Shown: positions 25,178-51,321 of the stretch, piece by piece
Numbering within the stretch: the stretch's first letter is position 1
How the letters are laid out: every line of letters begins with the position of its first letter
NCBI GenBank assembly: GCA_019454045.1
Contig: SKCR01038919.1
Coordinates: forward strand, 33,260-97,259
Direction: 5' to 3'
Origin: Zanthoxylum bungeanum
Lineage: Eukaryota; Streptophyta; Magnoliopsida; Sapindales; Rutaceae
DNA length: 64,000 bases
The notes under the pieces: model-generated
Databases searched by the model: none
What the model saw: only the letters and a program-made list of their open reading frames with translations
What the model was told of the DNA's origin: nothing
Translations under genes and position numbers: made by a program

Positions 25178-25178
25178 T

Positions 25179-25210
<32 letters not shown>

Positions 25211-25236
25211 CTAATTTATATATATATATATATATA
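25178..25236. repeat. (TA)n microsatellite
   Basis: Nearly pure TA dinucleotides with two short interruptions, between the URH1 upstream region and Copia C4. Confidence 0.9.
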
Positions 25237-25499
25237 TTAATTTTTGGCCTGAATTGAGTAAATATTTTTTTCGGCATACAGTATATTCCAGAAAAGCGGG
25301 CTCTTAGAAACAAGATCTACAAGAAAGCAAGGGAAGATCCGTGACAGTGATAAAATTATGTTAAAATCGAATAATAGATTTGAAATCCTGGAATCAAACA
25401 AGAAGCATTTCAATTGAAAAAAATTGTTGTACATCTTGAAAGACAGAGCACATGCTGACAAGGAACCACGTATTTCTTATAATATGCTCCTCCATGTGC

Positions 25500-28619: not shown

Positions 28620-28830
28620 TGTGCCATTCCTGGCGTGCTAAACCCCATACCTAGGGCGTTGCGGTAGTCCACAATAGTCCATATGTCGTACTTGGCGTGC
28701 TAAACCCCGTACCTAGGGTGTCGCGGTTGCGTCTCCATACCTAGAGTGCCGCAGTTGTCTGAATGCCGTACCTGGCGTGCTAACCCCGTACTTGGGGTGT
28801 CGCGGTAGTCCACATAGTCTGATCTGAATT
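28620..28830 (-). repeat. VNTR block 1 (about 80-95 bp units)
   Basis: Two to three diverged units containing TGGCGTGCTAAACCCC, GTACCTAGGGTGTCGCGG and a GTCCAC or TCTCC link. Confidence 0.7.
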
Positions 28831-28844
28831 AAGTTGTGTTGTGG

Positions 28845-29625
28845 GTCTTGTTCCCAATCTGAGTTTGTTGTGCTGTGGGTCTTGTTCCCAATTTGTGTTG
28901 TGGGTCTTGTTCCCGATCTGAGTTGAGTTGAGGGTCTTATTCCCTTAATTGTGGGTCTTATTCCCGTGGGTCTTGTTCCTGAAGTGAGTTGAGGGTATTG
29001 TTCCCTGAATTGTGGGTCTTGTTCCCGAAGTGAGCTGAGGGTCTTGTTCCCTGAATTGTGGGTTTTGTTCCCGTGGGTCTTGTTCCCGAAGTGAGCTGAG
29101 GGTCTTGTTCCCTGAATTATGGGTTTTGTTCCCGTGGGTCTTGTTCCCAAAGTGAGCTGAGGGTCTTGTTCCCTGAATTGTGGGTTTTTTTCCCGTGGGT
29201 CTTGTTCCCGAAGTGAGCTGAGGGTCTTGTTCCCTGAATTGTGGGTTTTTGTTCCCGTGGGTCTTGTTCCCAAAGTGAGCTGAGGGTCTTGTTCCCTGAA
29301 TTATGGGTTTTGTTCCCGTGGGTCTTGTTCCCAAAGTGAGCTGAGGGTCTTGTTCCCTGAATTATGGTTTTGTTCCCGTGGGTCTTGTTCCCAAAGTGAG
29401 CTGAGGGTCTTGTTCCCTGAATTGTGGGTTTTGTTCCCGTGGGTCTTGTTCCCGAAGTGAGCTGAGGGTCTTGTTCCCTGAATTGTGGTTTTTGTTCCCG
29501 TGGGTCTTGTTCCCGAAGTGAGCTGAGGGTCTTGTTCCCTGAATTATGGGTTTTGTTCCCGTGGGTCTTGTTCCCAAAGTGAGATGAGGGTCTTGTTCCC
29601 TGAATTGTGGGTTTTGTTCCCGAAC
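28845..29625 (-). repeat. VNTR block 2: 61-bp tandem repeat, about 11 units
   Basis: Each unit contains GAGGGTCTTGTTCCCTGAAT, GTGGGTTTTGTTCCCGTGGG and CCCGAAGTGAGCT, with units of 60-62 bp. Because 61 is not a multiple of three, all three minus-strand frames stay open and give the same peptide-like string in rotation (GTRPTGTKP...). That is periodicity, not coding. The first units (28845-28975) are shorter and more diverged. Confidence 0.95.
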
Positions 29626-29637
29626 TGTTGATGTGAT

Positions 29638-29925
29638 GTGGTCCATTCCGAACTGTATCTCCATTCTTGGAGTGCCATTCCCAGCGTGCCATTCTCGACG
29701 TGCTCATTCTTGAGCTGTCCATTCCCGGACTATATCTCTATTCTCGGAGTGCCATTCCCGGCGTGCCATTCTTGGCGTGCTCATTCTCGAGCTGTCCATT
29801 CCCGGACTATATGTCCATTCTCGGAGTGTCATTCCTGGCGTGCCATTCTCGGCGTGCTCATTCTCGAGATGTCTATTCCCAGACTATATCTCCATTCTCG
29901 GAGTGCCATTCTCGGCAGAACTGAT
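29638..29925 (-). repeat. VNTR block 3: about 77-bp tandem repeat, 3.6 units
   Basis: Units start near 29650, 29728, 29804 and 29880 and contain GGACTATATCTCCATTC, GGAGTGCCATTC, GGCGTGCCATTCT and CTCATTCTCGAGCTGTCC. Confidence 0.9.
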
Positions 29926-30440
29926 CTGATATGATGCGGGCCTCGCCCCCAGAATGCCATGCCCGGCAGAAACTGATCTGATGCTATGTGGGCCTTCCCC
30001 CTAGAATGCCATACCCGACAGAAACTGATCTGATGCTATGTGGGCCTCGCCCCCAGAATGTTATATCTGGCAGAACTGATCTGATGTCTTCATACTCAGA
30101 GTACCGTACCTGGCTGATCTAATATCTCCATACTTGGAGTGCCGTACCTGGCAAAACTGATCTGATATCTCCATACCTGGAGTGCCGTACCTGGCAAAAC
30201 TGATATTGATGTCTCCATACTCGGAGTGCCATACCCGGAAAAACTGATGCTAATAATGATGTGGGCCTCGCCCCCAGAGTGCCATACCCGCCAAGACTGA
30301 TACTAAACTAATGTGGGCCTCGCCCCCAGAGTGCCATACCCGGCAACACTGATACCGATAATGATGTGGGCCTCGCCCCTAGAGTGCCATACCCGGCAAG
30401 ATTGATACTGATGCTAATATGGGCCTCGCCCCAGACTGAT
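29926..30440 (-). repeat. VNTR block 4: 55-65-bp repeats
   Basis: Two interleaved unit types: GTGGGCCTCGCCCCCAGA with GCCATACCCGGCA and ACTGATCTGATG, and a CTCCATACTTGGAG / GTGCCGTACCTGGCA variant at 30060-30240. CTCCATACTTGGAG is a short hairpin. Confidence 0.85.
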
Positions 30441-30870
30441 GCTGATGTTTGATATGGGCCTCGACCCTGGGACTCATTCCCGAAACTGCTGACAAGGTGG
30501 GCCTCGACCCTGAGATCCATTCCAGGATTCATTCCAAATTCTGACGACGTGGGCCTCGGCCCTGGGATTCATTCCCTGGATTCACTCCAAAACTCTAGCG
30601 ATATGGGATTCATTCCCCTGGGATTCATTCCCGAAACCCTGACGATGTGGGCCTCGACCCTGGGATTCATTCCCCAAACTGTTGATAAGGTGGGCCTCGA
30701 CCCTGAGTTGATACTGATGTGGGCCTCGCCCCAAACTGATACTGATGTGGGCCTCGCCCCCAGACTGAAACTGATGTGGACCTCACCCCAAACTGATGTG
30801 GGCCTCGCCCCAAACTGATACTGATATGGGCCTCAACCCCGAGACTCATCCCCAAACGGATACTGATACG
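30441..30870 (-). repeat. VNTR block 5: short repeats with GGGCCTCGACCCTG
   Basis: Irregular 30-60-bp units built on GTGGGCCTCGACCCTGGG, ATTCATTCC and ACTGATACTGATGTGG. It shares the GGGCCTCG core with block 4, so the blocks probably grew from one another. Confidence 0.85.
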
Positions 30871-32810: not shown

Positions 32811-35047
32811 TGTAGATAACAGAACCTGGGCGACGCTGTTCTAGGCTCGCGGCCTAGTTGGGAGTACGAAATAACATGGAGTCGCCACCCGGTGTGAACG
32901 GGACAAAGATTTAAGGCCGCACACTCACCCCTCGCAAGGGAAGACCTCAAACCGTTGGGTTCGGAATGGTCCCTTACTTATGTCACTTGTGATGATATGA
33001 TTTGTGCAATAAACTAACCGAATATTTCAACATTCATGCTCAAGGGTAATCTACGCCTAAGTCCGCATGCATATTAATAACAATGAGAACCTATATCTAA
33101 GTTCGTATACTTCAAAGTAAGTTGTCATAACGGCAAACACGCAATAACATACAATCATCACACAAGCATGCTCAATTATCTAATGCGGAAAATAAATAGG
33201 AATCTAAGCATAAATTTAAATTTAAATCCCTAATGTGAAAACAACCTAATCATGCATAAAGAAATAACTTTCCATCGACTAAATCATGCTTAAGATAAAT
33301 AAAATGCTAATAACCTAATCATGCTTTAATAACAAATAAATAACCTACGAACTACAACATGCTCAAACACAAGTTTGGATGAGACGAAATACGTGTCTCT
33401 TAAGTGGTACGTGGCGTTGTATCCCAAGTACAAACCGCACTACCGTCCATTCGGATTCGGCTACGGAATTTACGTCCGGGTTTCCATCCTATATACCACA
33501 AAAGGGAACACATATTCCGCTCATCCAACAATCACATCATGCCTCAAACGACTCTCATGCGATAATATTCAGATTAAATAAAATAAACGAAAGATGATGA
33601 ATGAAAGGGTGCCCTCAGGTCTAACCTCTTTGGTCGTCTCAAGAAAGGGCGTTACACGTCCGTTGGAAGGGTGAATGATCCGCAACTCTTTTGGTTCACT
33701 AACTCAACGTCTTTCCTCGCTGTTTTGCTGCTGCTCGGGCTGCTTCTTTACTCCGTTTCGCTGCTGTCTTGCTGCTGCGTTTCAGGTCACTGTTTTGGTT
33801 ATTTAGGGGACTGTTTTGGGCAATTTGGAGGGCTAATTGGCTTGCGGTTTTAAGGGGTTTTAGGGGAAACCTTGTGCAGTTTTTTAGTGCAGTTTTAGGG
33901 TAGTTTTAGGGCTGTTTTATGGGTTAAAATCGCAACAAAAACTGGGCAGAATGGGGAGGCAGAATGCGGCAGTTTAGGTGCAGTGCAGTGGGTGTTTTAG
34001 GCTTGGTTTCAGGCGTGCAGTGAGGCTATGTGTAGGGGCTGTTTGTGGCGACTTTAGGGCTGTGTAAGGGGCTATTTTGGCGTGGATTAGGGGCTGTGAA
34101 AGGAGGTTTAGGTGCGGCAAAGGGCTGATCCGTGAGGGGGCAAGAAGTGCGCAGATGTTGCTTCTGTTGTGAGGAGTGGGGCTGGATAATAGCGTGAAGG
34201 TCACGTGTTGTGCTATGTGGCTAGTTGAGTGAAGGTTACGTGTTGTGCTATGTGGCTATTTAAGTGAAGGTTACCTGTGTGGGCGTGAATTTAGGCATCA
34301 ACGTGAGGGGGGCAAGGGGCTTATGCGGCTTGGGTGCTTGCGTGAGAGTTGGTGGAGGCAATGTGTTTACCGTGAGGAGTGTGAGAGCAGCTAGGTTTTT
34401 TCTTCCTGTTTTTTTTTGTGAGAGTGAGCCAGCAGCCAGGGTTTTGAATGTGTGGAGAGGGGTTATTTTTATAGGCAAGGGGATGGGTTTTACCTTGTTA
34501 GGGAAGGAATAAGATTTGTGAGATATTCTTTTAATTAAAATGTGATAGGGGAAATCTTTAATTAAGGGAAGTGATTTGATTTATTCTTTTTAGTTAGGAT
34601 ATGATTTATTTAAATTGGTAGGTGATTTAATTAAATTAGGAATGTGATTTGTATTTTAGGAAGGGATTTAATATAATTTAGGAAGGTGATTTAATTTAAT
34701 TTGGGAAGGTGATTTAATTTGTGAAATGTGTTTTTAATTTAATTTAATTTGTTTTAATTATTTAATTTGTGAGATGTGTTTTTAAATATTTTAATTATTT
34801 ATTTTGTGAGATTGTTTTAAATATTTTAATTATTTAATTTGTGAGATGTGTTTAATGGGTTTGGTGTTGTTTAAAACAGAGGTCCAACAAGCAACCCGAA
34901 GCCAAACAACGAGGTTAAATCCAACAAATTCCATTTTACCCAACTTTACCCTTCCAACGTCCGTTTCCCGCGACTTTCATACTAAAGAGGTAGTTTCCTC
35001 CCGACTAGACTCATCATTGGCTAATGTGTAAAAAATCAATGCCTACA
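32811..35047 (-). repeat. 5' LTR of the Tat/Ogre-like element
   Basis: Matches 26243-28484. TATA box (TATAAAAA on the minus strand) at 34466-34473. It starts 35047 (TGTAGGCATTG) and ends 32811 in element sense, followed by the primer site. TSD ATAAG at 35048-35052. Confidence 0.93.
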
Positions 35048-35230: not shown

Positions 35231-35509
35231 GTTCATGTTGGACATTATGACCCATAGCGTCACTATTTGCACAGATCATTGTGTTGTTGTAGCAAATTAA
35301 CTATGTGACAAAGAAATTGCACTCTCATCATTTGTGATTAGATCACCATAGATATATAAATGAAGAGAGGTCCCTATGATTAGTTCCTGGATTGAGATGA
35401 TATGAGACAGTATCAGTCCACGAAGGATTAATCATTAAATATCCCTAGCCGTAGTATTATCGAGACTGGACATCGATAATGCGGAATAGGCTAGTATTGC
35501 ACTTGTGCG

Positions 35510-35527
35510 CGTTGTGAGGGCACAACG
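35510..35527 (+). ncRNA. Conserved hairpin HP1 in family H LTR
   Basis: Stem CGTTGTG / CACAACG with loop AGGG. Aligned stems in other LTRs, in element sense: H-a 719-736 identical; H-b 8275-8292 CGTTATG/CATAACG; H-e 47641-47658 TGTTGTG/CATAACG; H-f 51551-51568 TGTTATG/CGTAACA; H-g 58079-58096 CGTTGTG/CACGACC. The fifth pair is G-C, A-T or G-T and the outer pair C-G, T-G or T-A, so pairing is kept (one mismatch in H-g). Whether it acts as RNA is inference. Confidence 0.7.
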
Positions 35528-35584
35528 GCATAGTTCTCATATATATAAGTATTGGATACTTATGCAAGTGCGATAGGAGGTCGT

Positions 35585-35607
35585 GTTTCACCGATGGTAC
35601 GGGAAAC
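35585..35607 (+). ncRNA. Conserved hairpin HP2 in family H LTR
   Basis: Outer stem GTTTC/GAAAC enclosing an inner ACC-GAT-GGT hairpin. H-e (47716-47738) has GTTTT/AAAAC, a change on both arms. H-f (51626-51646) has GTTT/AAAC, one base lost from each arm, with the inner stem ACT/GGT. H-b (8195-8217, minus strand) has GTTTT/GAAAC, a T-G wobble. Confidence 0.68.
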
Positions 35608-36289
35608 AGCTTCGCTCTGGATAGACCCCTCGGAATCCCATTGGTATTATGACTATGTGTCTATGGGAGGCCGAAATCAAGGTAGGTGTGTATAGTCTTA
35701 ACCTGAGACTTACATCGCTAATACTTACGATAATCGATAGACTTTGGTCTTGGTGGTAGGGGACTTTAACCGGTTTCTGTACACCACTTCTGGGTTTATC
35801 AGAGAGTCGTAGTGTATTGGGTGTGATGTCAAGATGGAAGTGTCACTTCAGTCATTTGGAGATGATGTCACGCAGGATACGGTACTAGTGCTCTTGAGTG
35901 TTGCGCAACCAATCGGGATATTGTGACCAGGTCATGTATATCCGATTATAGAGACTATGTTACCAGACATCCGACATGTTTTCGGACGGGGGAGACACTT
36001 ATCCACCCCCAGCCCTAGCACGTGATTATCCGATACTGGGCCGATATACACAATACTACGGTATACTACGCTTGATACAGATCTATATATTCCTGTAAGA
36101 ATATTTCTGGAGAATTGGGTAGGCATGGCGCTTTGCTAGAAGCCAACCTTGTCTTGTAAATCGATATAAACGTAGTACGAGGTACTTACGTGTTCGGACA
36201 GTCCGACGATCGTATTTACTACTGCCAACATATCCGGAGATCTCATGGGTCGCTTCCTGAAGATTCACCGATGACGTATGACTCGCACT

Positions 36290-36640
36290 TTGATTAATCT
36301 GGGATTAATTAGAAGAGAGAGAGATAGAATTAATCTGGGATTAATTCGATGAGAGAGAAAATTAATCTGGGATTAATTGCGGAGATATTTTATCTGGGAT
36401 AAAATATTAATTAAAGAGAGAGAACGATTAATTTGGAATTAATCGATAAAATAATATATTCGATATATTATCGAAATTGGATTTCGACGCGAAATTAAAA
36501 TTAGATTTTAATTCGGGCGAACGAATTAATTTAGAATTAATTCGTTAGCGACGTGAATAGTGAATTCGCTAGGCGTAATCATTTAATTACGACGCGACGG
36601 AAAATTCGTTAATTTGGAATTAGCGAACCCGAGCCCGAGA
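36290..36640 (+). repeat. Inverted-repeat chain upstream of the LTR TATA region
   Basis: Consecutive hairpins with 3-5 nt loops: ATTAATCTGGGATTAAT three times, TTTTATCTGGGATAAAA, CGATTAATTTGGAATTAATCG (as stems CGATTAAT/ATTAATCG), ATATATTCGATATAT, GAAATTGGATTTC, AATTAAAATTAGATTTTAATT (stems only partly listed) and CGAATTAAT/ATTAATTCG. The loops favour TGGGA, TTGGA or TTAGA. The chain is present at 44150-44500, 46640-47020 (minus), 48415-48720, 52325-52640 and 56990-57310 (minus). One hairpin unit (AATTAAATT/GATTTAATT type) is present in H-d and H-f but absent in H-c, so units come and go whole. Confidence 0.85.
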
Positions 36641-37389
36641 GTGATTGCGAGCGCATTCGCATTTCGAATTCGAGTGCGGCACGCAAGTCACATCAAGCGT
36701 CAAATCGTTTATCACATCAATCGTCAAATCAATTGTCACTTTGAGTGATGTGACTTGACAACATGTCACTTTATTAAAGTGATGTGATATGACTTAATTA
36801 AAGTAGAAATGATTGTGAAAATAGAAAAGCATTAATAGACTTTTGCTTTTTACTTTTGATATATAATGATATGATTTATATTATTTATTTTTGGAAATGA
36901 ATTAAATATATATAACTAAAGTCTTCTCTCTCTCCTGCTGCAGACTCACGGTCCTTCTTCTTTCCCTCCCCTCCTTTTCTCTTCTCTCTCCGTTCTTGGA
37001 CAGTTTTTCTTCTCCTTCTTGTTCTGTTTCTGCCGAAATGGAGAAGCAAGATAATGATTTGTTGCAAAAATCAAGTGCTAGCACACCTTGAGCATACTTA
37101 GGTGATAGGGAAACGAATTCATGTGCTTGGATGATTTTGGAGCTTGAAGCTTGGAGCTTCAATGGAGGTCACTCATGGCCGAAAATTGGAGATGCAAAGA
37201 CGTCCAAAACCGAGCAGCCCCACTGTCAAGGGCCTTGCCGAGCTTGGAGGGAGCTCAAAAACGCACCTTGTTCTTCATCCATCAAAACCGAAATTCAATG
37301 TGAGTTGATTCCGCCACCTCCTTTGATGTGTTCATATGTGATTTTTATGCATTGTTTGTGATCTTGTGGACTTGATTAAACTCCAACAT

Positions 37390-37403
37390 TGGTATCTAGA
37401 GCC
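37390..37403 (+). other. Primer-binding site of H-c
   Basis: TGGTATCTAGAGCC, one base after the LTR end, matches the initiator tRNA-Met primer consensus TGGTATCAGAGC with a one-base insertion. H-e has the exact form at 49390. Confidence 0.88.
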
Positions 37404-39169
37404 ATTGATGCATGAAATCCGAAATTAGGGTTCTTGGCAATTTGGGGCTTTTTGATTTTGGCTTGATTCTGACAAATTGATTGTGTAAGAATGCTTATAT
37501 ATGATCTAATTTGAGATATATGTAATCAATTTGACAAAAAAATCATTGGATTGATTTTCCCCAATTTGCAAATTGGTCAAAACTTTAATTTGGGTAAACT
37601 CGATTTAGGCATGATTTGGTTGAATTGTTTGATGCATTATGCTTGAATGAGGTTGAATTGAAGTTGTGCATGATCAATTTCAAGAAAATTGGATTAGATC
37701 AATTTTCCCCAATTCTTAGGTTGAAATGAAACTTGAAATTGGGTAAAATGTGTTTAAGCATGTTTTAATTGAATTGGATGTTTAAGTATGCTTAGAACAT
37801 GTTTAATTGAGATTGTGTGTGATCAATTTCATGAAATTGGATTGGATTCATTTTCCCCAAATTGGAGGCTTGGCCGAAATTGGAAGAACCTAATGTCTTG
37901 GTAATTTTGTTTGTTTGATCATTGGATGACTTAAAACAATTGGTTAATGTTGTTTTGAAGTTCAATTGGATTGAATTTTGATTTGGAACATTTTTCCCTT
38001 TTAAGTGGCTTGGCCGATTTTAAAGAACATGAATTCTTTGTGATTTTGTTGTTTTAATTCATTGGATGAATTGAATTGATTTGGGAAATTAAGATTGTGG
38101 ACTCAATTGGATTGAAACCGAATCGAATTGAAAAACCCCTAATTGCCGAGACTTGAAAGCATGTTAATTGGGTTTGATTTTAATTGAATTGTGTTGGACA
38201 CTATTTGGTTGTTAAAGTGCATGATTAATTAGGCTAATTGATATTTTAGAAATGTTAATTGGGTAATTGATTGTGTATTACACTTAGGTTAATTAATTGT
38301 GAAATTTGGAATTTTATAAGTTAATTAATTTGGGCTTGATTTTGGAAATTGGGCTTGTTAGGGTTGTAATTGGGCTTTTGGGCTTTGTTGTAACAAAGTT
38401 GGGTTTAGGCAAATTGGTTGGATCCAATTAGGCCCAAACCGAATCCAAAAGGTCCAATTATGACTTAATGGACCTTAATTATTTAATTGGGCCTAATGGG
38501 CCAAAATTAATTTAAAGGCTTATGGGGTAACTCCCGGATTGGATTTTGGTTGTTCGGTTTGACCCGAGTTGACCAAAAGTCCACGCCTATAGAAATTAAT
38601 TAAAAGCCCATTGGACTTTAATTAAATAAAACATTAGATGTTAATCGGGCTTTGAGACCCGTTGCGATTAAATTTGGAATTTAAGTCGTAAAGGTTCGTT
38701 AATAAAAGTGTAATATTTAATTTGGAATTAAATAATGAATTAGAATTAAATACGTATTAAATTGGATTTAATTATGAATTTAATTTAATTAATTCGTAGA
38801 AATTGTACTTTGAGTACGTGTTTGCAATACGAGTTTGACTCGAACAAAATCAAATCTTTGTTTGAACATTGGATGATCACTAATAATCAAGATTAATTAA
38901 TTTGATTGATTGATTGATAACATGCTTGTATGAATACATGGTTGTGATGTTTGAATAATGTATATCGGATGGATATTAGTCGGGTTGGGCGATTTTGGAA
39001 ATTGTAATAAATTTGATTTATTAAATTGGACCTGCGTGTCCAGCCTTATCTCCTATTTCTTTGTATTCTCTTCTCACCTATTCCCCTCCATGTAAAGAGG
39101 TTTCTTTAGAAGTGTAGTGTAACGGGTAGAAGTAATACAAGTGCTAGCGGGAGAGAGAAAGTGAGAGAT

Positions 39170-39184
39170 TTGATCTAGGATCAA
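39170..39184 (+). ncRNA. Conserved hairpin HP3 in family H leader
   Basis: TTGATC-TAG-GATCAA here and in H-g (62708-62722, minus strand). H-e (50740-50754) has TTGTTC-TAG-GAACAA, an A-T to T-A exchange on both arms. H-f (54539-54553) has TTGTTC-TAG-GAATAA with a G-T wobble. The loop TAG is unchanged in all four. Confidence 0.68.
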
Positions 39185-39949
39185 TGTAAAATATCCATCC
39201 GCATATCATTATTATTTTATTTCATACTCGCTTTATTATGTGTTTAGAATGCATGCTTAAGGGTGTATGATGATGAGACCTTAACAAAGATAATTAAATT
39301 GGTAGCCAATTTGCACGCGAAAAACCCTCGTTATATCATGCGTTTTTCCTTCCATTGAGTGATTCTTACTCAAGATCCGAGATTGGCAGGGGTTGTTGGC
39401 CAAAGTCAAGCCCTTGTCCATCAAAGATGTGTTTAATCACGAGGCTTTGTTCCATATCGGTGTCGTGTCCAAGTTGTGGTTTTTGGCCAAAGTCAAGACC
39501 ACTTCTTGTCCATTGACATTGATTACGAAGCTTCCATGTCAATGGGTCCGCGCTTGACTGGGATCACTAGGTTTGTTGTGCCAAAGCCAAGGCCTAGTTG
39601 ATTCAGAGGAAATAGGTTAGGGTATACATTCGATGTATAGGCATATATAAGATATATGTTTGGGACTTGGATGTCCACCTACTGGATCTAGGAGTTGGAT
39701 GAGATCCAATTGATCTTCGAGATCTACCTAGTTAATTATCATACAATTTGTTGGCCAAAGTCAAGATTGTGTGATATTTAACGGGATCCTAGCCCACTAG
39801 GAAACACGGTTTCCCGAGTACTCGACAGAGGGTTAGAGGCTCGACGAAAAATAGTGGGAGGCAAGTATTGAATTTGCAACATTCGTTCGAATACTCGCTA
39901 AACACGCTCATTTATTTTATTCGTCATTAGATTAAAGTATTAGTTAGAC

Positions 39950-40230
39950 TAATATTTAAATTGTTGTTTTAATAAACAGTTGGACTGTATTATACTTGAT
40001 TATATATAATTGGATTATATTAATCAATATATTTGAATTAATTAATTTCAGTTTACAGTTGATTTTATAATTGGATTATAGTAATCAATGTAATTGAGGT
40101 TAATTAATTTGGATTATATTTGATTATATAGTTGGACTATTATAATCATTATAATATATAAAGTACCACTAATCGTTGATTAAATAGTTGGACTATTGTA
40201 ATCAAGATAAATTGAAAAGTTGAATATTTA
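39950..40230 (+). repeat. Diverged ~60-bp AT-rich tandem repeats
   Basis: Four or five units containing (A)TAGTTGGACTAT(T)-TAATCA or its variant AATTGGATTATAGTAATCA, separated by TTAATTAATT-type links. The mirror copy in H-g is 61690-61920. Confidence 0.75.
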
Positions 40231-40599
40231 AAATATAATCTGGATTAAAATATTTTAAATGATTTAATTTTCAAATTGGGAATAAATAATAGGTTACTTT
40301 ATTTGATAAAATAACTTATTATACCTTAAGCCCAAAATTAAGCAAATAGTAGAGCATAAAATCTTTGGAAGATTTATGTGATGATGACTTTAATGCTTAA
40401 TTAATACTTATAATAAATCTATCTTTAGATTTAAAAGTATTAAAATTGCAATTAATAATTCTTGGAGAATTAATTGACTATTCTAGTGGAGAAAAGTCAA
40501 AGTTTGCAATTGGGCATGTAGCACGAGGTGCACATCGTTTCGATATTCCAAAAACCCAAGGCTTGGCCTAAGGTTCCTAAATATTGAAAAGGATAATTG

Positions 40600-42862
40600 A
40601 CATATCCCAAAGTGACTACCATTTGGATATGGAAGACACGAAGGAATTAAAGAAAGGGCGAGGCTCTAACTTAAAAATATTTGTCTTAGTTATGTTCACA
40701 GCTAGTATTGAAATTAGATTTTAAATACTTAGTGTGGTACATAAAATATATGTATTGATATTCAGAATCTGCTTTGAGCAGGATACTGACTTCAAGCTGA
40801 GATTCCTCTGCGAATCGGAAACGGGACGAAAGTCGCTGTTTCGACCGTAGATACCTAAGTTTAGGAACTAACCTGGGGTGTGTACTTAAATTAGGAACTG
40901 TTATAATGTAACTAGTTTGACTAGAGACATTATCTCTTTATCAGTGTTTAATCCGTTGCGGATAAAACCTTTATATATAAAACACTGAGTGTTTTATTAT
41001 ATAAAAAGATGATACTGAGATAAATACATTAGATGTAAATAACATAATTTATATTTTGAATATAAATAAAATCTCAAACATATAAATGACAAATAAATAG
41101 CTCAAATTGATTTGATCAATAGAGACTTATTTATGGTATTGTTGTCTAGGACACAATTAAACGAGACATGTCAGTTAGACGGTGTGTCCGAACAAAACCG
41201 AATTTTGTTGGACATGATAAGGTTTATCACGAGTCGCTCTGAGCTATCATTTCCTTCAAACAGGATATGTATTAACAGTGCAAACTTATTTAGAATAAGG
41301 TTCCATATAAATCTGTTTGACAGATATCATATAGGATATGAACAGGAAAGAAACGAGGTTTCTCATTCCTGATAATTTGGGTATGCCAGGCATAAAGTTT
41401 GGATGATACCAAACTAAGAACCAAATTGGATAAGTGCCAATATAGGTTATCCTAAGGGAAACCATAAGTATAGTACTTATAAATCTCACATGAGAACAAT
41501 GTGATTGTTGCTCACCATGCGGTTTTCCTGAGAGGAATACCGATATGCAGTGGTCAGTGGGAGGATAGTGATACTCGATGAAAATCGGAGTAATACTATT
41601 CAAGCACGAAGTCCTTAATGGAACACAACAGTTCATCAATGATGAATCTGTACCATTAATCTTCAAATACACAAGAAACCGCGTAGATCGGAGAGAGTCA
41701 GAAAACAACCTGGGGTATGGGTTTCTGATCTAACCTCATAAAGATGTCAATCTTATAAGGTACACCAACTGACTACGTTTGAGGTAGTGATACAAGGTAT
41801 CGACTCCCTATTATGGCAAAGTGCCATGAATCGAAATGGATTCCATGTTTAACAACTATTTTGGATACTAGTTGTTGTACCACAAGGCATTGTGCCTATG
41901 GTACATTAAACGTCTTCAAGGAAGACATACATGGATGGCAACATACCAACGTACAAAGCTAGGCTTTTGACGGAAAGGTATCGTTATCAACATTGTGTTA
42001 ATAACGGTTCAACCTTTTACCTGTTGCCATGGTAAATCCATTTTGAAGATGCTTGTTGATAACTGTATATTTCATTTGTGAAATATGTCAGTTATAAATC
42101 AAAATCGCTTTCCTGAAAAGGAAACCTTTTGGAGAATGTTTATAACATTCTGACGATTTTGTATAACCGACAAACAAGGTTTGCGGATTATTCAATCCAT
42201 GTTTGGATTGAAGCAAGCATAGGTTCTTGGAACTGACGTTTTGAAATAATCATAATGGTTTATGATTTAACTCAAAACGAAATAATTCTTGTGTATATAA
42301 GGAGGTTAGTGGGAGAGGGCACTGACAATGAAATTCCCATAAAACAATTGGTGAAAGCTGGCTTGGCTTCTTTCATAGAAATTCTCCGTAGAATTCTGGG
42401 GAGTAACAACCTTTATTCAAGGAATAAAGATCTACTGGGCTAGATTTGGAGTTGGTAACACTCTCTGAGAAATTGTACATTTAAAATGTACTTGTATTGG
42501 TGTCTCATACGCTTCGAGCATATGGAGTCACAATCGGGTCAATCCAAGTGATAGTCACTGGATTGAAGTTAAGAACATCTGTTAGTATCTGAGAGAACTA
42601 AAGATGTTATCTTAAACTATGGAGATGGAGAACTTGAAGTGACTGGGATCACTGCTGCAAGTTTCCAAACAATTAAATACTGCGGTACTATAAAGTTTGA
42701 ACACTGGGACAGTGAGCTGGAAATCTTCCGAGCAAGATAACTGTTGCCGAATTAACAACAAATGCGGATTATTGCTGCAGCTGAGGCAGCAATAGAAGCC
42801 ATTTGGATCGATAATAAATCTAATTAGATTAGATATAGTTCTGTTAGCAGCTGAGCTAGGCG
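40600..42862 (+). pseudogene. Decayed Copia pol in H-c: protease, integrase, reverse transcriptase, RNase H
   Basis: Colinear traces in shifting frames. Protease side near 40720-40860: LQAEIPLRIGNGTKVAVSTV resembles the Copia DLRVGNGARVAA region after the CGSHIC motif. Integrase at 41128-41250: DGVSEQNRILLDMIRFITSR matches NGVSERRNRTLLDMVRSMMS with the catalytic Glu. The core with the first two Asp residues is missing, since a TYLW-LGH trace joins it directly. Reverse transcriptase near 41930-42450: KARLLTERY, SMFGLKQA-type and QLVKAGLASFIEI-type segments. RNase H near 42590-42860: NYGDGELEVTGITAASFQT, then AAAEAAIEAIW. YVDD is not preserved. Stops abound, and short perfect inverted repeats overlie these segments. 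Confidence 0.8.
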
Positions 42863-43080
42863 TCAGCACAGGCTAAAGAATTAAAGGTCTCATCGACGAT
42901 CCAGATATATACTTCTATATCATCTGATTCGTTCGGATCATACATCGTGGCGATGTGATGATCGTGTAAATCGCGTCAGACGATAATTAAACAAATCCGC
43001 TGACGAAAACCTTTCCTCAGCAATTTGAGCGAACCGTACATAGTTCAGGGTGTAGGACACTTGAGTGACTGGCTATGTGC

Positions 43081-43092
43081 CAAGTGGGAGAT
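43081..43092 (+). other. Polypurine tract of H-c
   Basis: CAAGTGGGAGAT directly before the LTR start TGTTGGAC; the standard Copia form, also present (reversed) in H-b and H-g. Confidence 0.85.
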
Positions 43093-45267
43093 TGTTGGAC
43101 AAATGACCCATAGCGTCACTATTTGCACAGATCATTGTGTTGTTGTAGCAAATTAACTATGTGACAAGGAAATTGCACTCTCATCATTTGTGATTAGATC
43201 ACCATAGATATATAAATGAAGAGAGGTCCCTATGATTAGTTCCTGGATTGAGATGATATGAGACAGTATCAGTCCCCGAAGGTTTAATCATTAAATATCC
43301 CTAGCCGTAGTATTATCGAGACTGGACATCGATAATGCGGAATAGGCTAGTATTGCACTTGTGCGCGTTTGTGAGGGCACAACGGCATAGTTCTCATATA
43401 TATAAGTATTGGATACTTATGCAAGTGCGATAGGAGGTCGTGTTTCACCGATGGTACGGGAAACAGCTTCGCTCTGGATAGACCCCTCGGAATCCCATTG
43501 GTATTATGACTATGTGTCTATGGGAGGCCGAAATCAAGGTAGGTGTGTATAGTCTTAACCTGAGACTTACATCGCTAATACTTACGATAATCGATAACTT
43601 TGGTCTTGGTGGTAGGGGACTTTAAACGGGTTCTGAGTACACCACTTCTGGGTTTATCAGAGAGTCGTAGTGTATTGGGTGTGATGTCAAGATGGAAGTG
43701 TCACTTCAGTCATTTGGAGATGATGTCACGCAGGATACGGTACTAGTGCTCTTGAGTGTTGCGCAACCAATCGGGATATTGTGACCAGGTCATGTATATC
43801 CGATTATAGAGACTATGTTACCAGACATCCGACATGTGTTTCGGACGGGGCAGACACTTATCCAGCCCCAGCCCTAGCACGTGATTATCCGATACTGGGC
43901 CGATATATACACAATACTACGGTATACTACGCTTGATACAGATCTATATATTCCTGTAAGAATATTTCTGGAGAATTGGGTAGGCATGGCGCTTTGCTAG
44001 AAGCCAACCTTGTCTTGTAAATCGATATAAACGTAGTACGAGGTACTTACGTGTTCGGACAGTCCGACGATCGTATTTACTTGCCAACATATCCGGAGAT
44101 CTCATGGGTCGCTTCCTGAAGATTCACCGATGACGTATGACTCGCACTTTGATTAATCTGGGATTAATTAGAAGAGAGAGATAGAATTAATCTGGGATTA
44201 ATTCGATGAGAGAGAAAATTAATCTGGGATTAATTGCGGAGATATTTTATCTGGGATAAAATATTAATTAAAGAGAGAGAACGATTAATTTGGAATTAAT
44301 CGATAAAATAATATATTCGATATATTATTAGAAATTGGATTTCGACGCGGAATTAAAATTAGATTTTAATTCGGGCGAACGAATTAATTTAGAATTAATT
44401 CGTTAGCGACGTGAATAGTGAATTCGCTAGGCGTAATCATTTATTACGACGCGACGGAAAATTCGTTAATTTGGAATTAGCGAACCCGAGCCCGAGAGTG
44501 ATTGCGAGCGCATTCGCATTTCGAATTCGAGCGCGGCACGCAGTCACATCAAGCGTCAAATCGTTTATCACATCATGCGTCAAATCAATTGTCACTTTGA
44601 GTGATGTGACTTGACACATGTCACTTTATTAAAGTGATGTGATGATGACTGAGTAAAGTAGAATGATTGTGAAAAGTAGAAAGCATTAATAGACTTTTTG
44701 CTTTTACTTTTGATATATATGATAATGATTTTATATATATTTTTTTTGGAAAATGATTAAATATATATAACTAAAGTCCTTCTCTCTCTCCCTCTCCTTC
44801 CTGCATGCAAGACTCACGGTCTTCTTCTTTCTTCCTTTTCCCTCCCTTTTCTCTCTCGGTCTTGGACCGTTTTTTTCTTCCTCCTTTGTTCTTTTTTTTC
44901 CTCTTCTTCTTTTCTGCCGAAAATGGAGAGCATGATAATATTTTTGTGGCAAAATCAAGTGCTAGCACACCTTGAGCATACATAGGTGATAGGGAAACGA
45001 ATTCTGTGCTTGGAAGCATTTTGGAGCTTGAGCTTTGAGCTTCAATGGAGTTCCATCAGGCCGAATTTTGGAGATGCAAACCAGTCCCAAAACCGCACCC
45101 CACTGTCAAGAAGCCATTGCCGAGCTTGGAGGGAGTCAAAAACGCACTTGTTCTTCAAACATCAAAACCGAATTCAATGTGAGTTGATTCCGCCACCTCC
45201 TTTGATGTGTTCATATGTGATTTTTATGCATTGTTTGTGATCTTGTGGACTTGATTAAACTCCAACA
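43093..45267 (+). repeat. 3' LTR of H-c
   Basis: Partner of 35236-37388 and near-identical over its first 1.4 kb. Many one-base indels occur after about 44500. HP1 carries an extra T in its 5' arm at 43366-43384. Confidence 0.95.
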
Positions 45268-46132
45268 GTTCACTGGTTTCAAAGGTCTGTCCGTCATCCA
45301 AAATAATTTGGATGTCAATGTAGCCTCTGAGGATCGGGTTAACGGCTCTCCTACTCGACACTCTTTTCCCACTCCTCTGTTCTACTTCTTACTTTCAATC
45401 ATGTACTCCTCTTATCTGTTGCCACTCGTGTTGGGTGTTGGGGTGTTTGTATGCATTCGAATTAGTTTTTTTGTTTGTCGGCACTGGAATTAGAGATATC
45501 TGAGATTTTCAATGCCTTCTATTGTCTGGTCTTCAAGAAACACTACATCTTTGCTTCTGATGAGCTTCTTTTCCTTCGGGTCCATAACATGTACATCTTT
45601 GAATTCCTCTCCACAGCCTATGAAAGATGCATGGAGTGGTTGCACCAACTTCTGCTGAGCCCTTAGATACATTGTCAAAGGCTAATAGCCGCATTTTCTA
45701 AGGTGAGAACATGAGAGATTTTTTATCAGACTATACTTTTGTCTCTTGGAATCTCAAAATTCATGGTACAGATGGTGATCTTGTTGATTAGTAGCGATGC
45801 GGCACGAAAACTTCTCTCCAGAATGGCTTGGCAGCTAGCCATGCTAATCATATGCTTTGACTTTCTCCATAATGGTGCGGTTCATTTTTTTAGCAACATC
45901 ATTAAATGTTGTGTCTTTCGCTGTAGGCATCATACGCTCTGGAAGTGTACTCGCCTCCATTATTTGTGCAAAGGCACTTCAGTTTCTTCCATGTTTCATG
46001 TTCTACCATGGCATGAAACGGTTTGAAATGATCCAAAACCTGATCTTTTATTTTCAGAAAATACACCCACACTTTTCGAGAAGAATCGTCAATCAAAGTC
46101 ATAAAGTATTTGTTACTGCCTAGTGAATTAAC
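45268..46132 (-). pseudogene. Copia C4, integrase
   Basis: Minus-strand reading. NSLGSNKYFMTLIDDSSRKV and WVYFLKIKDQVLDHFKPFHA are the integrase core with its first catalytic Asp. NNGGEYTSRAYDAYSERHNI is the second block, where Asp of TDNGGEY reads Asn. Further down, SFIGCGEEFKDVHVMDPKEK and KLIRSKDVVFLEDQTIEGIE are the C-terminal region. Frame changes separate the parts. The same family as C3 at 19806-20400. The upstream part of C4 is cut by family H copy H-d at 46133 and lies beyond it. Confidence 0.88.
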
Positions 46133-47367
46133 TGTTAGTCTCTAAGACATGCCACAAGATCCTAAACATGATTATATGTGTGAAATAACAAGAAAAGTGG
46201 CGGAATCACTTACATTGTTAAATGGAGAAATTTCTTCTTTGGATGAAGCTCCAAGCTTGTTATTATGTTATTTTTTACCTTGGGTGAGTTTCCCTATCAC
46301 CTTATTGGACTCCTCCAAGTGTTAGCTATGTAGAAATTTTGAAGCAAAAATTTCACTAAAAGGAATAGAAGTAATCGGCAATGGTGGGAAGAAGAGAGGA
46401 GAGTGTGTTGTTTCCAAAACTTGATTGTTTTGTGTTAAAATGATGTATTTAATTTTAAGCCAACTACTTACATCAACAATAGACCTTTGATGTAAGTCAT
46501 GTGGTCCCACCACCTTTTAAATTAAAAATTTGAGTTGGCTTCCTCAACACACAACTTGACTTGGGCCCACCAAAGTCAAAGATATTTTGTGTTCCCAAAA
46601 CACAAAAAGACACACGCAAAGTCACGGGCAATTTTATCGGGTTCATTTAATTCCGATTAAACGAATTTACCGTCGCGCCATAATTAAATCCAATTTAATT
46701 AAATAATTATGCCTTACAAAATTATTACGATAGTCACTTTCGAATTAATTCTAAATTAATTTGTTCGCCCGAATTAAAATCCAATTTTAATTTCGTATTG
46801 AAATCTGATTTCAATTAATATATCTGATATATTATTTTAGCCACAAATAAATAAATTAAATAGAAAAATCTAATTTAACTATTAAATTTATATTTTATCG
46901 ATTAATTCTAAATTAATCGCGTTCTCTCTTCTATATGAAGTTAATCCCAGATTAATTCTTGCCTTAATCCCAGATTAATTTTCTCTCTCATACTTAATCC
47001 CAGATTAATTCTATCTCAGTCAAATATCATTGGTGAATCTTTGGGAAGCGACCCAAGAGATCCATGGATATATTGGCAGTAAATAAGGTTATCGGACTAT
47101 TCGAACACGTGCGTACCATGTACCATGTTCTCACCGATTTACAGGACTTGGTTGGCTTCTAGCAAAGCACCGTGCCTACCCAATTCTCCAGAAATATTCA
47201 CTGAGGAATATCATATGTATCAGGCGTAGTAATACTAATATTATGTAATACGTAATACGATCCAGTATCGGATGTCACATGCTAGGCCTAGGGCTGGCTC
47301 TGTGTCTGCCCCGTACGAAGCATATATCGGATCCCGAGTAACTAATCTCTGTAATCGGGAAGTCATG
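46133..47367 (-). mobile_element. Family H LTR, partial (copy H-d)
   Basis: Begins TGTTAGTCTCTAAGAC (LTR 3' end, reversed) right inside Copia C4 integrase and runs to 47367, where H-e begins. It is an older, more diverged copy: the inverted-repeat chain at 46640-47020 has different stem sequences, e.g. TTGAAATC/GATTTCAA in element sense versus GAAATTGGATTTC in H-c. Confidence 0.8.
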
Positions 47368-50300
47368 TGTTGGATAGTTATGATCCATAGCGTCACTATT
47401 TGTACATATCATGGTGTTGTTGTACAAATTAACTATGTGACAAAGGAAATTGCTCTCTTATCATTTGTAATTAGATTACCAAGATGTATAAATGATAGAA
47501 TGTCCTTATGATTAGTTTCGGATTGATAAGATATGGGACAGTATCAATCCACGAAGGTTTAATCATTAAATATCCATAGTCGTAGTATTATCAAGATTGG
47601 ACATCGATAATGCGGAATAAACTAGTATTACACTTGTGCGTGTTGTGGGAGCATAACGACATAGTTCTCATATATTTTGGTATAGGATACTCATGCAAGT
47701 GTAGTAGGAGGTTGTGTTTTACCGATGGTACGGAAAACAGCTTCGCTTTGGATAGACCCCTCGGAATTCCATTGGTAGTATGACTATGTGTCTATGGAAG
47801 TCCGAATCAGGGTAGATGTATTTGGTCTTAACCTGAGACTTGCACCGCTAATACTTGCGACAATCAATGTACTTTGGTTTTGGTCGTCCAGGGCTTTAAC
47901 AGGTTTTGTGTACGCCTCTTCTAGGTATATGGAGAATCGTAGTGTATTGGGTGTGATGTCGAGATGGAAGTATCACTCCAGTCATAGTGGAGATGATGAT
48001 CACGTAGGATACGGAACTGGTTCTCTTATGTACTGCAGTCATCGGGATAATATGACTAGGTCATGATTATCCGATTATAGAGACTAGTTACCAGAGATCC
48101 GATATATACTTCATACGGGGCAGACACATTTCTAGCCCCAGGCCTAGCACGTGACATCCGATGCTGGATCGAAATACGCAATACTACGTATACTACGCCT
48201 GATATAGATCAAATATTCCAGTAAGAATATTTCTGGAGAATTGGGTAGGCATGGCGCTTTGCTAGAAGCCAACCTTGTCTTGTAAATCGGTACAAACGTA
48301 GTACTAGGTACATACGTGTTCGGATAGTCCGACGACCGGATTTACTGCCAACATATCTGGGGATCTCATGGGTCGCTTCCCGAAGATTCACCGATGACGT
48401 ATGACTCACACTTTATTAATCTGGGATTAATTAGATAAGAGAGAAAATTAATTTGGGATTAATTACGGAGATATTTTATCTGGGATAAAATATTATTTAA
48501 AGAGAGAGAACGATTAATTTGGAATAAATCGATAAATAATATATTCGATATATTATACGAAATTGGATTTCGATGCGGTATTGAAATTAAATTTTAATTC
48601 GGGCGAACGAGTTAATTTGGAATTAATTCGTAAGCAATGTGAATAATGATTTTGCTAGGCATAATTACTTAATTACGTCGCAACGAATAATTCGTTAATT
48701 TGGAATTAGCGAACCCTAGCCCGAGAGTGTTTGCGGCGCACTCACATTGCGAATTTAAGTGCGGCCGACAAGTCACATCAAGCGTCAAATCACTTGTCAC
48801 TTTGAGTGATGTGACAACTTGTCATTTGAGTGATTGATGGAAGTAGTTGGTTGGCTTTAATGCCATTTACCAATTTTGAATTTGGTAAATCAAGTAATTG
48901 ATTTAGGAAAATCAATATTGTGTATTAGATACACAAACCAATTAATTCATCACTCTCTCTCTTCAAGACACACGGTTTTGAGACATTTCCCTCATCTCTC
49001 TCACGGTCTTGGACCACATTTCTTCTTCTGTTTTTCTTCTACTGCCGTGAACAAAGGAGAAGTAAAGTGAAGATTTTGTTGCAAAATCAAGAGTGCTAGC
49101 ACACAAAGGAGTCATCCTAAGGTGATAGGGAAACCAACTTGTGAGCTTGGAATCACCATTTGAGAAGCTTGGAGCTTGGAGCATCAATGGAGCACACTTG
49201 GAGGTGATGATCGAAAATTTGGAGGCCAAATTTCTGCCCACTGCCGAGAGCTTCATCACCTTGGAGGAAAAGATTTTTCTTCGTCGCATCGCTCAACCGA
49301 TCATTGTAAGTATTCTGCAACTTCCTTGTTGTATTCGCACATGGTTTCTTTGCTTAAATGATCCTTGGGACCTTAGAGAAACCCAACAATGGTATCAGAG
49401 CGAGGTTGAACATGAAACTTGAACTTCGGGTTAAAATTTGGTAAATTGAATTTGAGCATGATTTGATAAAATTCTTTGATTGAGTATACTTGAATGATGT
49501 TTAATTGAAGTTGTATTGGATCAATTTCATGAAATTTGATTGGATCAATTTTTGCCCAAAAATATTGGCTTGGCCGAATATGAACAAGTGCCATATGTCA
49601 TGGTATTTTTTGATTTTGATCATTGGATGAGTTAAAATCATTTGGGAAATGTTGATTTAATGTTGATTGTGGATTTATTTGGATTTAACCCGAATCGGAC
49701 ATGAAAAACCCCAAATTGCCGTGAGTTATAGCATGTGAAAATGAGTTGATTTCTGATTAAAATGTGTTGGACATGTTTTGATGTTAATGAGCATAATCAA
49801 TTGTGTAAATTGTTGTTTTAGACATGTTAATTTGGGTAATTAATTATGGCTTACACTTTGGTTAATTAAGTTATAAAATTTGGAATTTGGTAATTTAATT
49901 AATTGGGCCTATTTTGGAAATTGGGCTTTAAAAGTTGTAATTGGGCTTTAATGGGCTTGGTTGTACCAAGATGGTTTAAGCTAAATTGGTTGGATCCAAT
50001 TGGGCCCAAAACCATATCCATAAAGTCCAATTATGACTAATGGACCTTTAATATTTAATTGGGCCTAATGGGCCTAAAATGGTTTCTTGGCATATAAGGG
50101 TGATTTCTTAAATGGACTTTGGTATTTGGGTTTGACCCATATTGACCAAAATTCCATGCCTTAGAAATTAATTAAAAGCCCATTTGACTTTAAATTAAAT
50201 TGACATTGGATGTTAATCGGGCTTTGAGACCCGTAACGATTAGATTTAGAATCTAAGTCGTAAAGGTACATTAAAAGTGTAAATATTTAATTAAATAAAT

Positions 50301-51321
50301 GAGTTAGTATTAAATACAAATTAAATTGGATTTAATGTTGTAGTTTAATTTAATTCAAGAGTTCGTACTTTGAGTACTTATTCGCAAAACGAGTCGGACT
50401 CGCGCAAAATCAAATCGTTATTTTAACATTGGATGGTCATTAATATTCAGATTAATTAATTGGATTAGATTGATTGATAACATGCTTGTGTGAATACATG
50501 GTTGCGATGTATGAATAATGCATATCGGATGGATATTAGATGGGTGGGGCAATTTTGGAAATTGTTGTAATAAATTTAGAATTTATTAATTGGACCTGCG
50601 TGTCCAGCCTATTACCTATTGACTCTGTGCATTTCTCTTCTCACCTATTCCCCTCAATATAAATGAGGTTTCTTTAGAAGTGTTATGTAATCGGGTAGAA
50701 GTAATACTTGTGCTAGCGGGAGAGAGGAAAGGGAGAGATTTGTTCTAGGAACAATATGTTTAAGTATCCATCCGCATATCATTATTATTTTATTTATATG
50801 AGCCTTATTATGTGTTTAGAATGCATGTTTAAGGGTGTATGATGATGAGACCTTAACAAAGATAATTAATTGGTTGCCAATTACACGCGAAAAACCCTCA
50901 ACATCATATTAAGCGTTTTTCCTTCCATTGAGTGATTCTTACTCAAGATCCAAGACTGGCATTGGTTTGTTGGCCAAAGTCAAGGCCTTTGTCTGTCGAG
51001 GATGTGTTTGAATCATGAAAGCTTTGTTCCATATTAGTGTCTTGTCCAAGTTGTGATTTGTTGGCCAAAGTCAAGATCACTTCTTGTCCATCGACATTGA
51101 TTACGAAGCTTTCCAAGGTCAATGGGTTCCGCTTAACTGGGATCACTAAGTTTGTTGTGCCAAAGCCAAGGCTTAGTTGATTCAGAGGAAAAAGGTTAGG
51201 CAATATATTGGATATATTGGCATATATAAGATATATGTTTCGGACTTGGATGTCCACCTACTGGATCTAGGAATTTTATGGGATCCAATTGATCTTAGAG
51301 ATCTACCTATTTATAAAAGAC
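47368..51321 (+). mobile_element. Family H copy H-e: LTR plus leader
   Basis: LTR 47368-49388 (TGTTGGATAG...ACCCAACA), preceded by TCATG within the H-d LTR. Primer site TGGTATCAGAGC at 49390, then the family leader to about 51321. The leader stops abruptly at ATCTACCTATTTATAAAAG and is followed by LTR sequence of H-f lacking its first ~45 bases. The pol part is absent. Confidence 0.85.

Follow-up and report, generated by a model that had tools for sequence, protein, structure and literature searches.

Why should a retrotransposon that is too broken to encode its own proteins carry dozens of short hairpins of one kind? The question is raised by element E, a Copia-derived element at 35236-45267 on the forward strand of the stretch of Zanthoxylum bungeanum DNA analyzed here (the window, 64,000 nucleotides, C35322:33260-97259, from a source genome of 3.96 Gb in 51,709 contigs). 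An earlier note on this DNA proposed that the coding sequence of E had been progressively converted to hairpins, either by template switching or by selection for a folded RNA. The hairpins considered below, termed NNG hairpins, have a perfect stem of at least 5 bp and a three-base loop ending in G on the sense strand. At the level of sequence, the following are established for the family of E: the array of such hairpins, its strand polarity, the conservation of the loop G and of the pairing, the presence of the array in open reading frames (ORFs), and its higher density in copies that have lost their coding capacity. These results point to sites that are selected as RNA and that may be read by the family's own Gag protein. 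The features of E, including its long terminal repeats (LTRs), are as follows.

35236-37398, + strand: 5' LTR of E, with TGTTGGA...CCAACA ends read directly; target-site duplicate GTTCA at 35231-35235
37399-37413, + strand: primer binding site TTGGTATCTAGAGCC, directly after the 5' LTR, read directly
37399-40700, + strand: leader region without a gag match; 28 NNG triloops (stem at least 5) versus 1.3 in shuffled sequence
40718-43062, + strand: broken Copia pol, gag-pre-integrase to RNase H (tblastn)
43093-45267, + strand: 3' LTR of E, followed by GTTCA at 45268-45272
36293-36546, + strand: densest LTR triloop run, with stems of 6-12 bp and loops that are mostly TGG and TAG
41912-41926, + strand: GTCTTC-AAG-GAAGAC, an NNG triloop compared by alignment

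The hairpin array of element E

Inverted-repeat density was counted as perfect arms with loops of 3-8 bases, per kb, against dinucleotide shuffles. With stems of at least 6 bp, the surplus claimed for E, both over shuffles and over the two control regions named in the earlier note, was found in every part of the element: 8.8 versus 1.6 in the 5' LTR, 9.2 versus 3.1 at 37.4-39.25 kb, 11.4 versus 2.4 at 39.25-41.0 kb, 13.4 versus 1.9 at 41.0-43.1 kb, and 6.0 versus 1.5 in the 3' LTR (z from 4.9 to 13.5). The controls gave 3.4 versus 1.9 at 1012-2770 and 2.6 versus 1.3 at 11156-11913 (z 1.2 in both). The same check is less clean with stems of at least 5 bp, at which 37.4-39.25 kb reaches only 16.3 versus 10.8 (z 1.9) and the control at 11156-11913 is also raised (15.8 versus 5.5, z 4.2), yet that control holds 0 NNG triloops. 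The seven inverted repeats quoted for E are all present, six with perfect arms at their places and the seventh as a nested pair at 42540-42565. NNG hairpins are sparser than the one per 20-40 bases reported earlier, with a median spacing of 55 bases and gaps of up to 815.

The surplus is specific in loop length and loop sequence. In a scan of 35238-43092 (perfect stems of at least 6 bp), loops of 3 bases showed by far the greatest surplus, with 48 versus 2.4 expected, whereas the rise was 2- to 6-fold for loops of 0, 1, 4, 6, 12, and 13 bases and every other length between 2 and 15 stayed within about 2-fold of shuffles. The apparent 12- and 13-nucleotide loops in this stretch (13 and 9 versus about 2) are possibly interrupted NNG hairpins. 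Forty-three of the 48 triloops end in G. With stems of at least 5 bp, one LTR plus the internal region of E holds 69 NNG hairpins versus about 2.6 in shuffles, and 40701-43092, covering pol, holds 24 versus 0.7. Many stem-loops that share a loop motif beyond chance, as dispersed packaging signals do, are thus found in the family. Pooled over E and the window copies F, G, and C2 (listed below), with stems of at least 5 bp, the leading loops are TGG (70; 92-fold over shuffles), TAG (51; 74-fold), TTG (41; 33-fold), and AAG (22; 30-fold), these fold enrichments not being independent evidence since the copies are related. The closing pairs are T-A in 101 and C-G in 34 cases versus A-T in 16 and G-C in 11, so that 135 of 162 are pyrimidine-purine. 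Copies in the opposite orientation read CCA, CTA, and CAA in their loops, and the motif therefore belongs to the sense strand. Other window sequence (about 29 kb) has 0 to 0.4 NNG hairpins per kb, apart from two short stretches (45.3-46.6 kb) that contain 3 of them, at 1.9 and 3.0 per kb. Smaug-type loops (CNGG, by the definition known to us) were considered as an identity for the motif and rejected, as only the C-TGG-G members fit and T-A closing pairs predominate.

Open relatives and the age of the array

As a transposon, E is an ordinary Copia member, and its Copia-derived identity, claimed earlier, is supported by tblastn, by the LTRs, and by the target duplicate. It has TG..CA ends, two direct LTRs, and a 5-bp GTTCA duplicate on both sides, all characters of Ty1/copia; the LTR pair is 94% identical (94.8% without gaps), and integrase lies upstream of reverse transcriptase (RT) and RNase H in both E and C2 (tblastn order), which is the Copia gene order. 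The sequence TTGGTATCTAGAGCC at 37399 is presumably a primer binding site of the initiator-Met-tRNA type, and AAGTGGGAGAT, which precedes the 3' LTR at 43093, is taken to be the polypurine tract. The hairpins do overlie recognizable pol fragments, as tblastn confirms. E itself does not encode a functional Gag-Pol: its pol contains stops, and no gag was found among the tblastn matches listed for five query proteins. In a Pfam scan of four broken, stop-ridden translations, only one matched (C2, SH3_retrovirus), RT being visible by tblastn instead. Seven of 26 in-frame stop sites are common to E, G, and C2, and the three pol remnants are 74-78% identical to open ORFs. The differences at codon positions 1-3 show no clear codon-position bias between E and C2 (36/260, 44/264, and 44/263) or between G and C2 (58/388, 71/396, and 65/391), and a slight position-3 surplus between E and G (16/259, 10/264, and 23/263). 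A search with the E-family pol piece gave 4077 first-look genomic candidates, of which 40 were scored, all 94-100% identical, with the window included. E belongs to a large Ty1/copia family of which it is a broken, non-autonomous copy. Given that E, G, and C2 are all disrupted, with E lacking a gag match as well, the thousands of pol candidates make mobilization in trans probable.

The search for family copies that the earlier note had proposed thus returned thousands of candidates, and open autonomous relatives were found as well. In a genome search with a related Copia protein as the query, 35 of 496,583 first-look candidates were scored, and 30 of the 35 lack an internal stop. Among the matches listed for the 20 loci taken from this search, LTR and leader are about 78-86% identical to the window family. 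An ORF of at least 900 amino acids is present in 18 of the 20 loci. Seventeen of these ORFs are 1294-1320 amino acids long with one CCHC knuckle (of the CLNCGKRGHWKRDC type), and the ORF of L014 is a 1036-amino-acid part without the knuckle. The ORF of L022 has Copia gag, CCHC, gag-pre-integrase, integrase, SH3, and RVT_2 domains, with rve at 493-589 and RVT_2 at 823-1068.

Seven of the 18 ORFs, forming about five sequence groups and not independent of each other (L018 and L022 are 98% identical, and L010, L011, and L014 about 95%), were compared with synonymous codon shuffles in which the protein and codon usage are kept (500 per ORF). L010, L011, L014, L018, L022, L024, and L028 contain 19, 22, 22, 21, 22, 22, and 15 NNG hairpins (stem at least 5), respectively, versus 2.0-2.6 in the shuffles, and none of the 500 shuffles reached the observed count in any of the seven. 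The polarity is also present in the ORFs, with 12-19 NNG loops not starting with C versus 1.6-2.0 shuffled and 1-5 C-first loops not ending in G versus 0.8-1.0. The array within open gag-pol frames therefore exceeds what protein and codon usage require, and its presence within intact ORFs indicates that it predates the loss of coding.

Such hairpins could be put down to chance, to AT-richness, or to the codons of Copia pol, and by eye some of them (e.g., in the alanine-rich stretch 42770-42794) look coding-derived. This explanation is hardly credible, as both the dinucleotide and the synonymous-codon nulls are far exceeded and other Copia ORFs lie near the null. In ORF stretches of six other Copia loci of the source genome, with 32-38% protein identity to E's family and a partial ORF in four of the six, the array is absent (0, 0, 2, 2, 2, and 0 NNG hairpins); 300, 300, 72, 16, 71, and 300 of 300 shuffles reach these counts, the 16 belonging to L051. 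Since L050 and L051 are 95% identical, the six controls represent five types. The array is likewise absent from three Ty3 loci (0, 2, and 0 versus 1.2-1.6 shuffled), which are one family (80-98% identical), with L045 and L046 identified as Ty3-type. A general Copia property was also rejected, given these near-null controls and L001, where the coding sequence has 0 NNG hairpins and the LTR sequence 1. L001 comes from contig NZ_QPKJ02000033.1, labeled Solirubrobacter, but its pol and LTR are those of a plant-type Copia, probably through plant contamination; the same may hold for P0128 (labeled Salmonella enterica), which has 67% identity to the L022 ORF.

The control at 11156-11913, which had been contrasted with E as an ordinary Copia tail, belongs to a second family in the window, copia2.

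11164-11910, + strand: copia2 coding tail, RT end and RNase H; 0 NNG hairpins
11929-13911, + strand: copia2 LTR of 1983 bp, with both ends verified against copies in the genome; 11 NNG hairpins versus 0.67 in shuffled sequence

The contrast holds for the coding part but fails for the element's own LTR, whose loops are GAG, TAG, TTG, GTG, and CGG. Of 11,147 first-look candidates in a genome search with this LTR, 40 were scored. The 15 LTR copies taken have 8-14 NNG hairpins each, with GAG, TTG, GTG, and TAG leading rather than TGG. The downstream flanks of the 15, on the leader side, have 8-12 in six cases, 4 in L033, 2 in L044, and 0 in seven, and the upstream flanks 0-6. In the window LTR, the first NNG triloop lies about 290 bp in (12220), and the others lie from 12631 onward. 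No relatives of the copia2 tail were confirmed in viral contigs.

The open relatives also reveal what changed after coding was lost. Compared with five intact ORFs, 13 of the 24 NNG hairpins in E pol have a stem of at least 5 bp in some ORF, 3 have a stem of 3-4 bp, and 8 have no triloop stem; the corresponding numbers are 14, 3, and 9 of 26 in G and 14, 3, and 8 of 25 in C2, where "no triloop stem" means none in the same register and five-base-loop hairpins in the ORFs are scored as none. Some of the 8 in E were hairpins with five-base loops that became triloops: at 41912, three intact ORFs aligned have a five-base loop (AAGAA), and E, G, and C2 are two bases shorter; at 41813, a five-base-loop hairpin in the aligned ORFs corresponds to an NNG triloop in E; and at 41464, C2 looks intermediate. 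The density is 10.0 per kb in E pol and 9.7 in C2 pol versus 3.8-7.1 in the seven ORFs. An origin of the hairpins from coding sequence that had none is therefore not upheld, since the ORFs carry 15-22 NNG hairpins and 13 of the 24 in E recur in at least one intact ORF. Progressive conversion survives as a second stage atop the ancestral array: because 3 of the 24 have only 3-4 bp and 8 have no triloop stem in the ORFs, NNG hairpins were strengthened or added after coding loss.

Constraint on stems and loops

Four alignment blocks were built from the copies of E's family in the window, whose identity is 75-96% depending on the block. Besides E, these copies and the other remnants of the family are as follows.

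1-1012, - strand: C1, partial LTR, hairpin-poor part; 2 NNG hairpins
7967-11158, - strand: C2, partial LTR and pol remnant; 25 NNG hairpins in 2590 bp of pol
46637-47367, - strand: inverted LTR fragment of E's family; 10 NNG hairpins versus 0.33 shuffled
47368-51306, + strand: F1, LTR and leader of a related copy; 29 NNG hairpins versus 1.2 shuffled
51307-55400, + strand: F2, LTR and leader; 30 NNG hairpins versus 1.3 shuffled
55428-55980, + strand: gag remnant after F2, matched to residues 18-200 of P0002 in three pieces
56278-64000, - strand: G, LTR (56278-58367) and internal region running past the window end; 16 + 47 NNG hairpins versus 0.5 + 2.0 shuffled

In the alignments of C1, C2, E, F1, F2, and G, covariation was scored for stems of at least 6 bp with loops of 3-4 bases of any sequence, and the control was the partner slid by 1-3 columns. 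Two-sided Watson-Crick changes were found in 39 of 736 unique pair columns versus 7-14 with the slid partner. In the same 736 columns, 79 are G-U only and 27 A-C only. Single transitions in stems were G-U-making in 151 cases and A-C-making in 44, versus 3461 and 3530 at unpaired sites. Because these counts reuse sequences, a bootstrap over hairpins was applied to 150 noncoding NNG positions from the window copies and the flanks of six open elements, giving 91 G-U and 39 A-C with a log2 ratio of 0.70 to 1.81. Changes at loop position 3 amounted to 56 in 1374 noncoding comparisons (4.1%) versus 14.4% for background G, outside hairpins (Fisher P = 4e-35, the comparisons not being independent); position 1 changed in 16.0%, and position 2 in 29.8%. 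Constraint therefore acts on the stem and on loop position 3, whereas position 2 varies freely. The changes at position 2, at about twice the background (14%), are mostly G to A and back. In coding sequence, two-sided changes occurred in 7 of 178 pair columns versus 0-2 with the slid partner, and one ORF site reads CGACA-TGG-TGTCG, CAATA-TGG-TATTG, and CGACT-TGG-AGTTG (with one G-U) across groups, with different encoded residues. Both the stem and the loop motif are thus conserved in E's family, which is a further character of dispersed packaging signals. Selection for a folded RNA, the second mechanism named in the earlier note, fits the compensatory changes, the tolerance of G-U, and the conserved loop G, and selection acting on RNA structure is very probable.

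The same alignments bear on a mutational origin, in which the hairpins would be by-products of RT snap-back, template switching, or quasipalindrome correction. The minimal three-base loops and perfect arms would suit such an origin, the polarity could follow from strand-specific cDNA synthesis, and the stems of copia2 change without compensation. However, among 279 comparisons of triloop hairpins (stem at least 7, few gaps), 134 were unchanged, 52 differed at one stem site, 22 differed at one site per arm, and 7 had 4-5 changes on one arm only. An arm replaced as a block, as in a template-switch palindrome, is not the pattern in these 279 comparisons, in which the changes are mostly scattered point changes. 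Few point changes over both arms, few one-arm blocks, and polar loops do not favor the template switching that had been suggested. Neither the surplus of G-U over A-C nor a change of 4% versus 14% at the loop G is expected from such a process, and the Ty3 family and other Copia types examined have no array. We consider a mutational origin quite improbable.

Candidate readers of the RNA and known systems

A kept stem and loop, with strand polarity and a near-invariant loop base, point to a protein that reads the sense RNA. The sense RNA of the family carries a dispersed array of hairpins of one main type, with a stem of 5-12 bp, a pyrimidine-purine closing pair, and a triloop whose third base is G. 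The array is probably under selection as RNA, and it would work by way of a protein that recognizes the unpaired G of the loop in many places. Retroviral nucleocapsid (NC) knuckles bind an exposed G in solved complexes from human immunodeficiency virus type 1 (HIV-1), Moloney murine leukemia virus (MoMuLV), and Rous sarcoma virus (RSV) (PMC7599994), and dispersed stem-loops with a loop motif regulate nucleocapsid assembly of hepatitis B virus (HBV) in vitro (PMC7612645). These two precedents make the family's own Gag, with its single CCHC zinc knuckle, the first candidate and likeliest reader. Whether the dispersed sites are selected as RNA and read by this knuckle is, in our judgment, an even call. 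Gag on many hairpins would favor the packaging (and annealing or reverse transcription) of family RNA. Broken copies such as E would be packaged in trans and could keep or add sites once the reading frame is irrelevant; as they must be packaged in trans, they would gain by doing so. A more specific version, in which one RNA would carry two codes, the Gag-Pol protein and a Gag-read NNG packaging array whose sites coding-less copies, freed from one constraint, add or perfect, is proposed tentatively, with rather more doubt than confidence; packaging selection would then convert what was once coding sequence in these copies to hairpins.

Several observations weigh against selected sites that are read by Gag. 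Noncoding positions with other loops (66) are also G-U biased (51 versus 17). In ORFs, loop positions 3 (3.4%) and 1 (3.7%) are equally conserved versus a background of 9-10%, so the coding test does not single out position 3, and the G-U over A-C bias is not significant (15 versus 12 columns). Triloops that do not end in G are mildly enriched in ORFs (8-19 versus 3.4-4.5), as are the C-first loops of L028 (5; none of 200 shuffles reaches this). Internal stem mismatches within single sequences are G-T in 9, A-C in 6, and other in 15 cases. The copia2 stems show two-sided changes in 0 of 110 and no G-U bias (7 versus 10 columns). The first kb of the LTR is almost without NNG hairpins (C1 has 2 in 1012 bp and C2 has 1 in 602 bp), and this hairpin-poor part (35236-36290 in E) is in the RNA. 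Sense folding is no better than antisense, with a mean z of -2.3 versus -3.3 in E pol, and the local pair probability of E's hairpins is 0.61 in sense versus 0.75 in antisense. Two other Copia types and one Ty3 locus have a CCHC knuckle without the array, and the knuckle alone therefore does not predict it.

Some of these points suit general selection on RNA structure, in which any local fold would suffice for stability or for avoidance of double-stranded RNA sensing. The plus-strand folding check suggested earlier gave negative z scores in the internal regions of E, strongly so at 39.7-41.0 kb (mean z -3.7), and this agrees with such selection, as do the G-U bias and compensation of noncoding non-NNG triloops and the mild rise of other loop lengths and non-NNG triloops. 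Against it, the surplus is concentrated at loop length 3, at G in position 3, and at the pyrimidine-purine closing pair. The check also failed to favor sense over antisense folding (the leader has -2.6 versus -1.5, and the LTRs are about equal). General structure as the whole explanation is, on balance, improbable.

The reader could also be a host RNA-binding protein acting in export, stability, translation control, or silencing evasion. The loop G and the closing-pair bias call for a sequence-reading partner without naming one, and the knuckle-bearing Copia and Ty3 types that have no array would be accommodated. Among the loci examined, however, the array is confined to one Copia family and copia2, which fits an element-encoded reader better, and the loop preferences of the two differ, with TGG and TAG in E's family versus GAG, GTG, and TTG in copia2. 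A host reader is thus a possibility to be taken seriously but an unlikely one. To our knowledge, RNA packaging choice in plant LTR retrotransposons, and the competition between autonomous and non-autonomous copies, are poorly known. If the array is read by Gag, packaging and copy competition could be tested using a small protein domain and short synthetic hairpins, and the family would clearly exemplify a transposon RNA that a single recurring RNA motif has shaped, even within the open ORF. So simple a motif lends itself to the screening of annotated collections of LTR retrotransposons.

Other repeats in the window and one set of database records were recorded separately. The inverted-repeat density is very high at 24001-26000 (30.5 per kb, stem 5), and tandem copies of a CGTGCCTACGGCACG-bearing unit lie at 24192-24345; this peak was rejected as the same phenomenon, with 0 NNG hairpins at 24.0-25.6 kb. 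Between two 97.8% identical 2.2-kb repeats (26243-28484 and 32811-35047), the stretch 28824-30840 is occupied by large tandem arrays whose repeats measure 61, 52, and 105 bp and include GTGGGTCTTGTTCCC and TGGGCCTCGCCCC units. Several of the records P0005-P0021 (Trifolium repens) are Copia polyproteins named "secreted RxLR effector protein," a name that looks mislabeled given their precomputed gag, integrase, and RVT_2 domains.

A hairpin array of this kind in retrotransposons was not found described in the open-access literature, a scope outside which most subscription papers and all preprints lie, and, to judge from titles and the opening lines of abstracts, open-access work on triloops and retrotransposons did not deal with LTR elements. 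Within that literature, the array itself is apparently undescribed, and the transposon that carries it is an ordinary Copia. E shares its LTR ends, target duplicate, primer binding site, and domains with plant Ty1/copia elements (e.g., P0107 from Hibiscus sabdariffa, 61% identical to the L022 ORF) and differs in the dense NNG array over LTR, leader, and open ORF, which is absent from the six other Copia loci. The large retrotransposon derivatives (LARDs) of Triticeae are non-autonomous elements with long LTRs and a conserved noncoding internal domain with reported RNA structure. E resembles them in part, being non-autonomous, with long LTRs and a noncoding, structured internal region, but it keeps pol remnants, and its structure is one repeated motif that is already present in the autonomous partner. 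Genome-scale ordered RNA structure, in which local structure overlaps coding sequence genome-wide, occurs in some RNA viruses; the family of E differs from these in having a single polar loop motif. Retroviral NC sites (the GGAG and GGUG tetraloops of HIV-1, UCUG of MoMuLV, and SL-C of RSV) likewise present an exposed G to a knuckle-bearing Gag, but they lie in the packaging-signal region (PMC7599994), whereas the motif of E's family spans nearly the whole element. The dispersed packaging signals of viral genomes, such as the RGAG loops of HBV (PMC7612645) and the signals of satellite tobacco necrosis virus (PMC3593212), also comprise many stem-loops with a common short loop motif; that of E is a triloop with G in position 3, present in 69 copies in one LTR plus the internal region of a plant retrotransposon.

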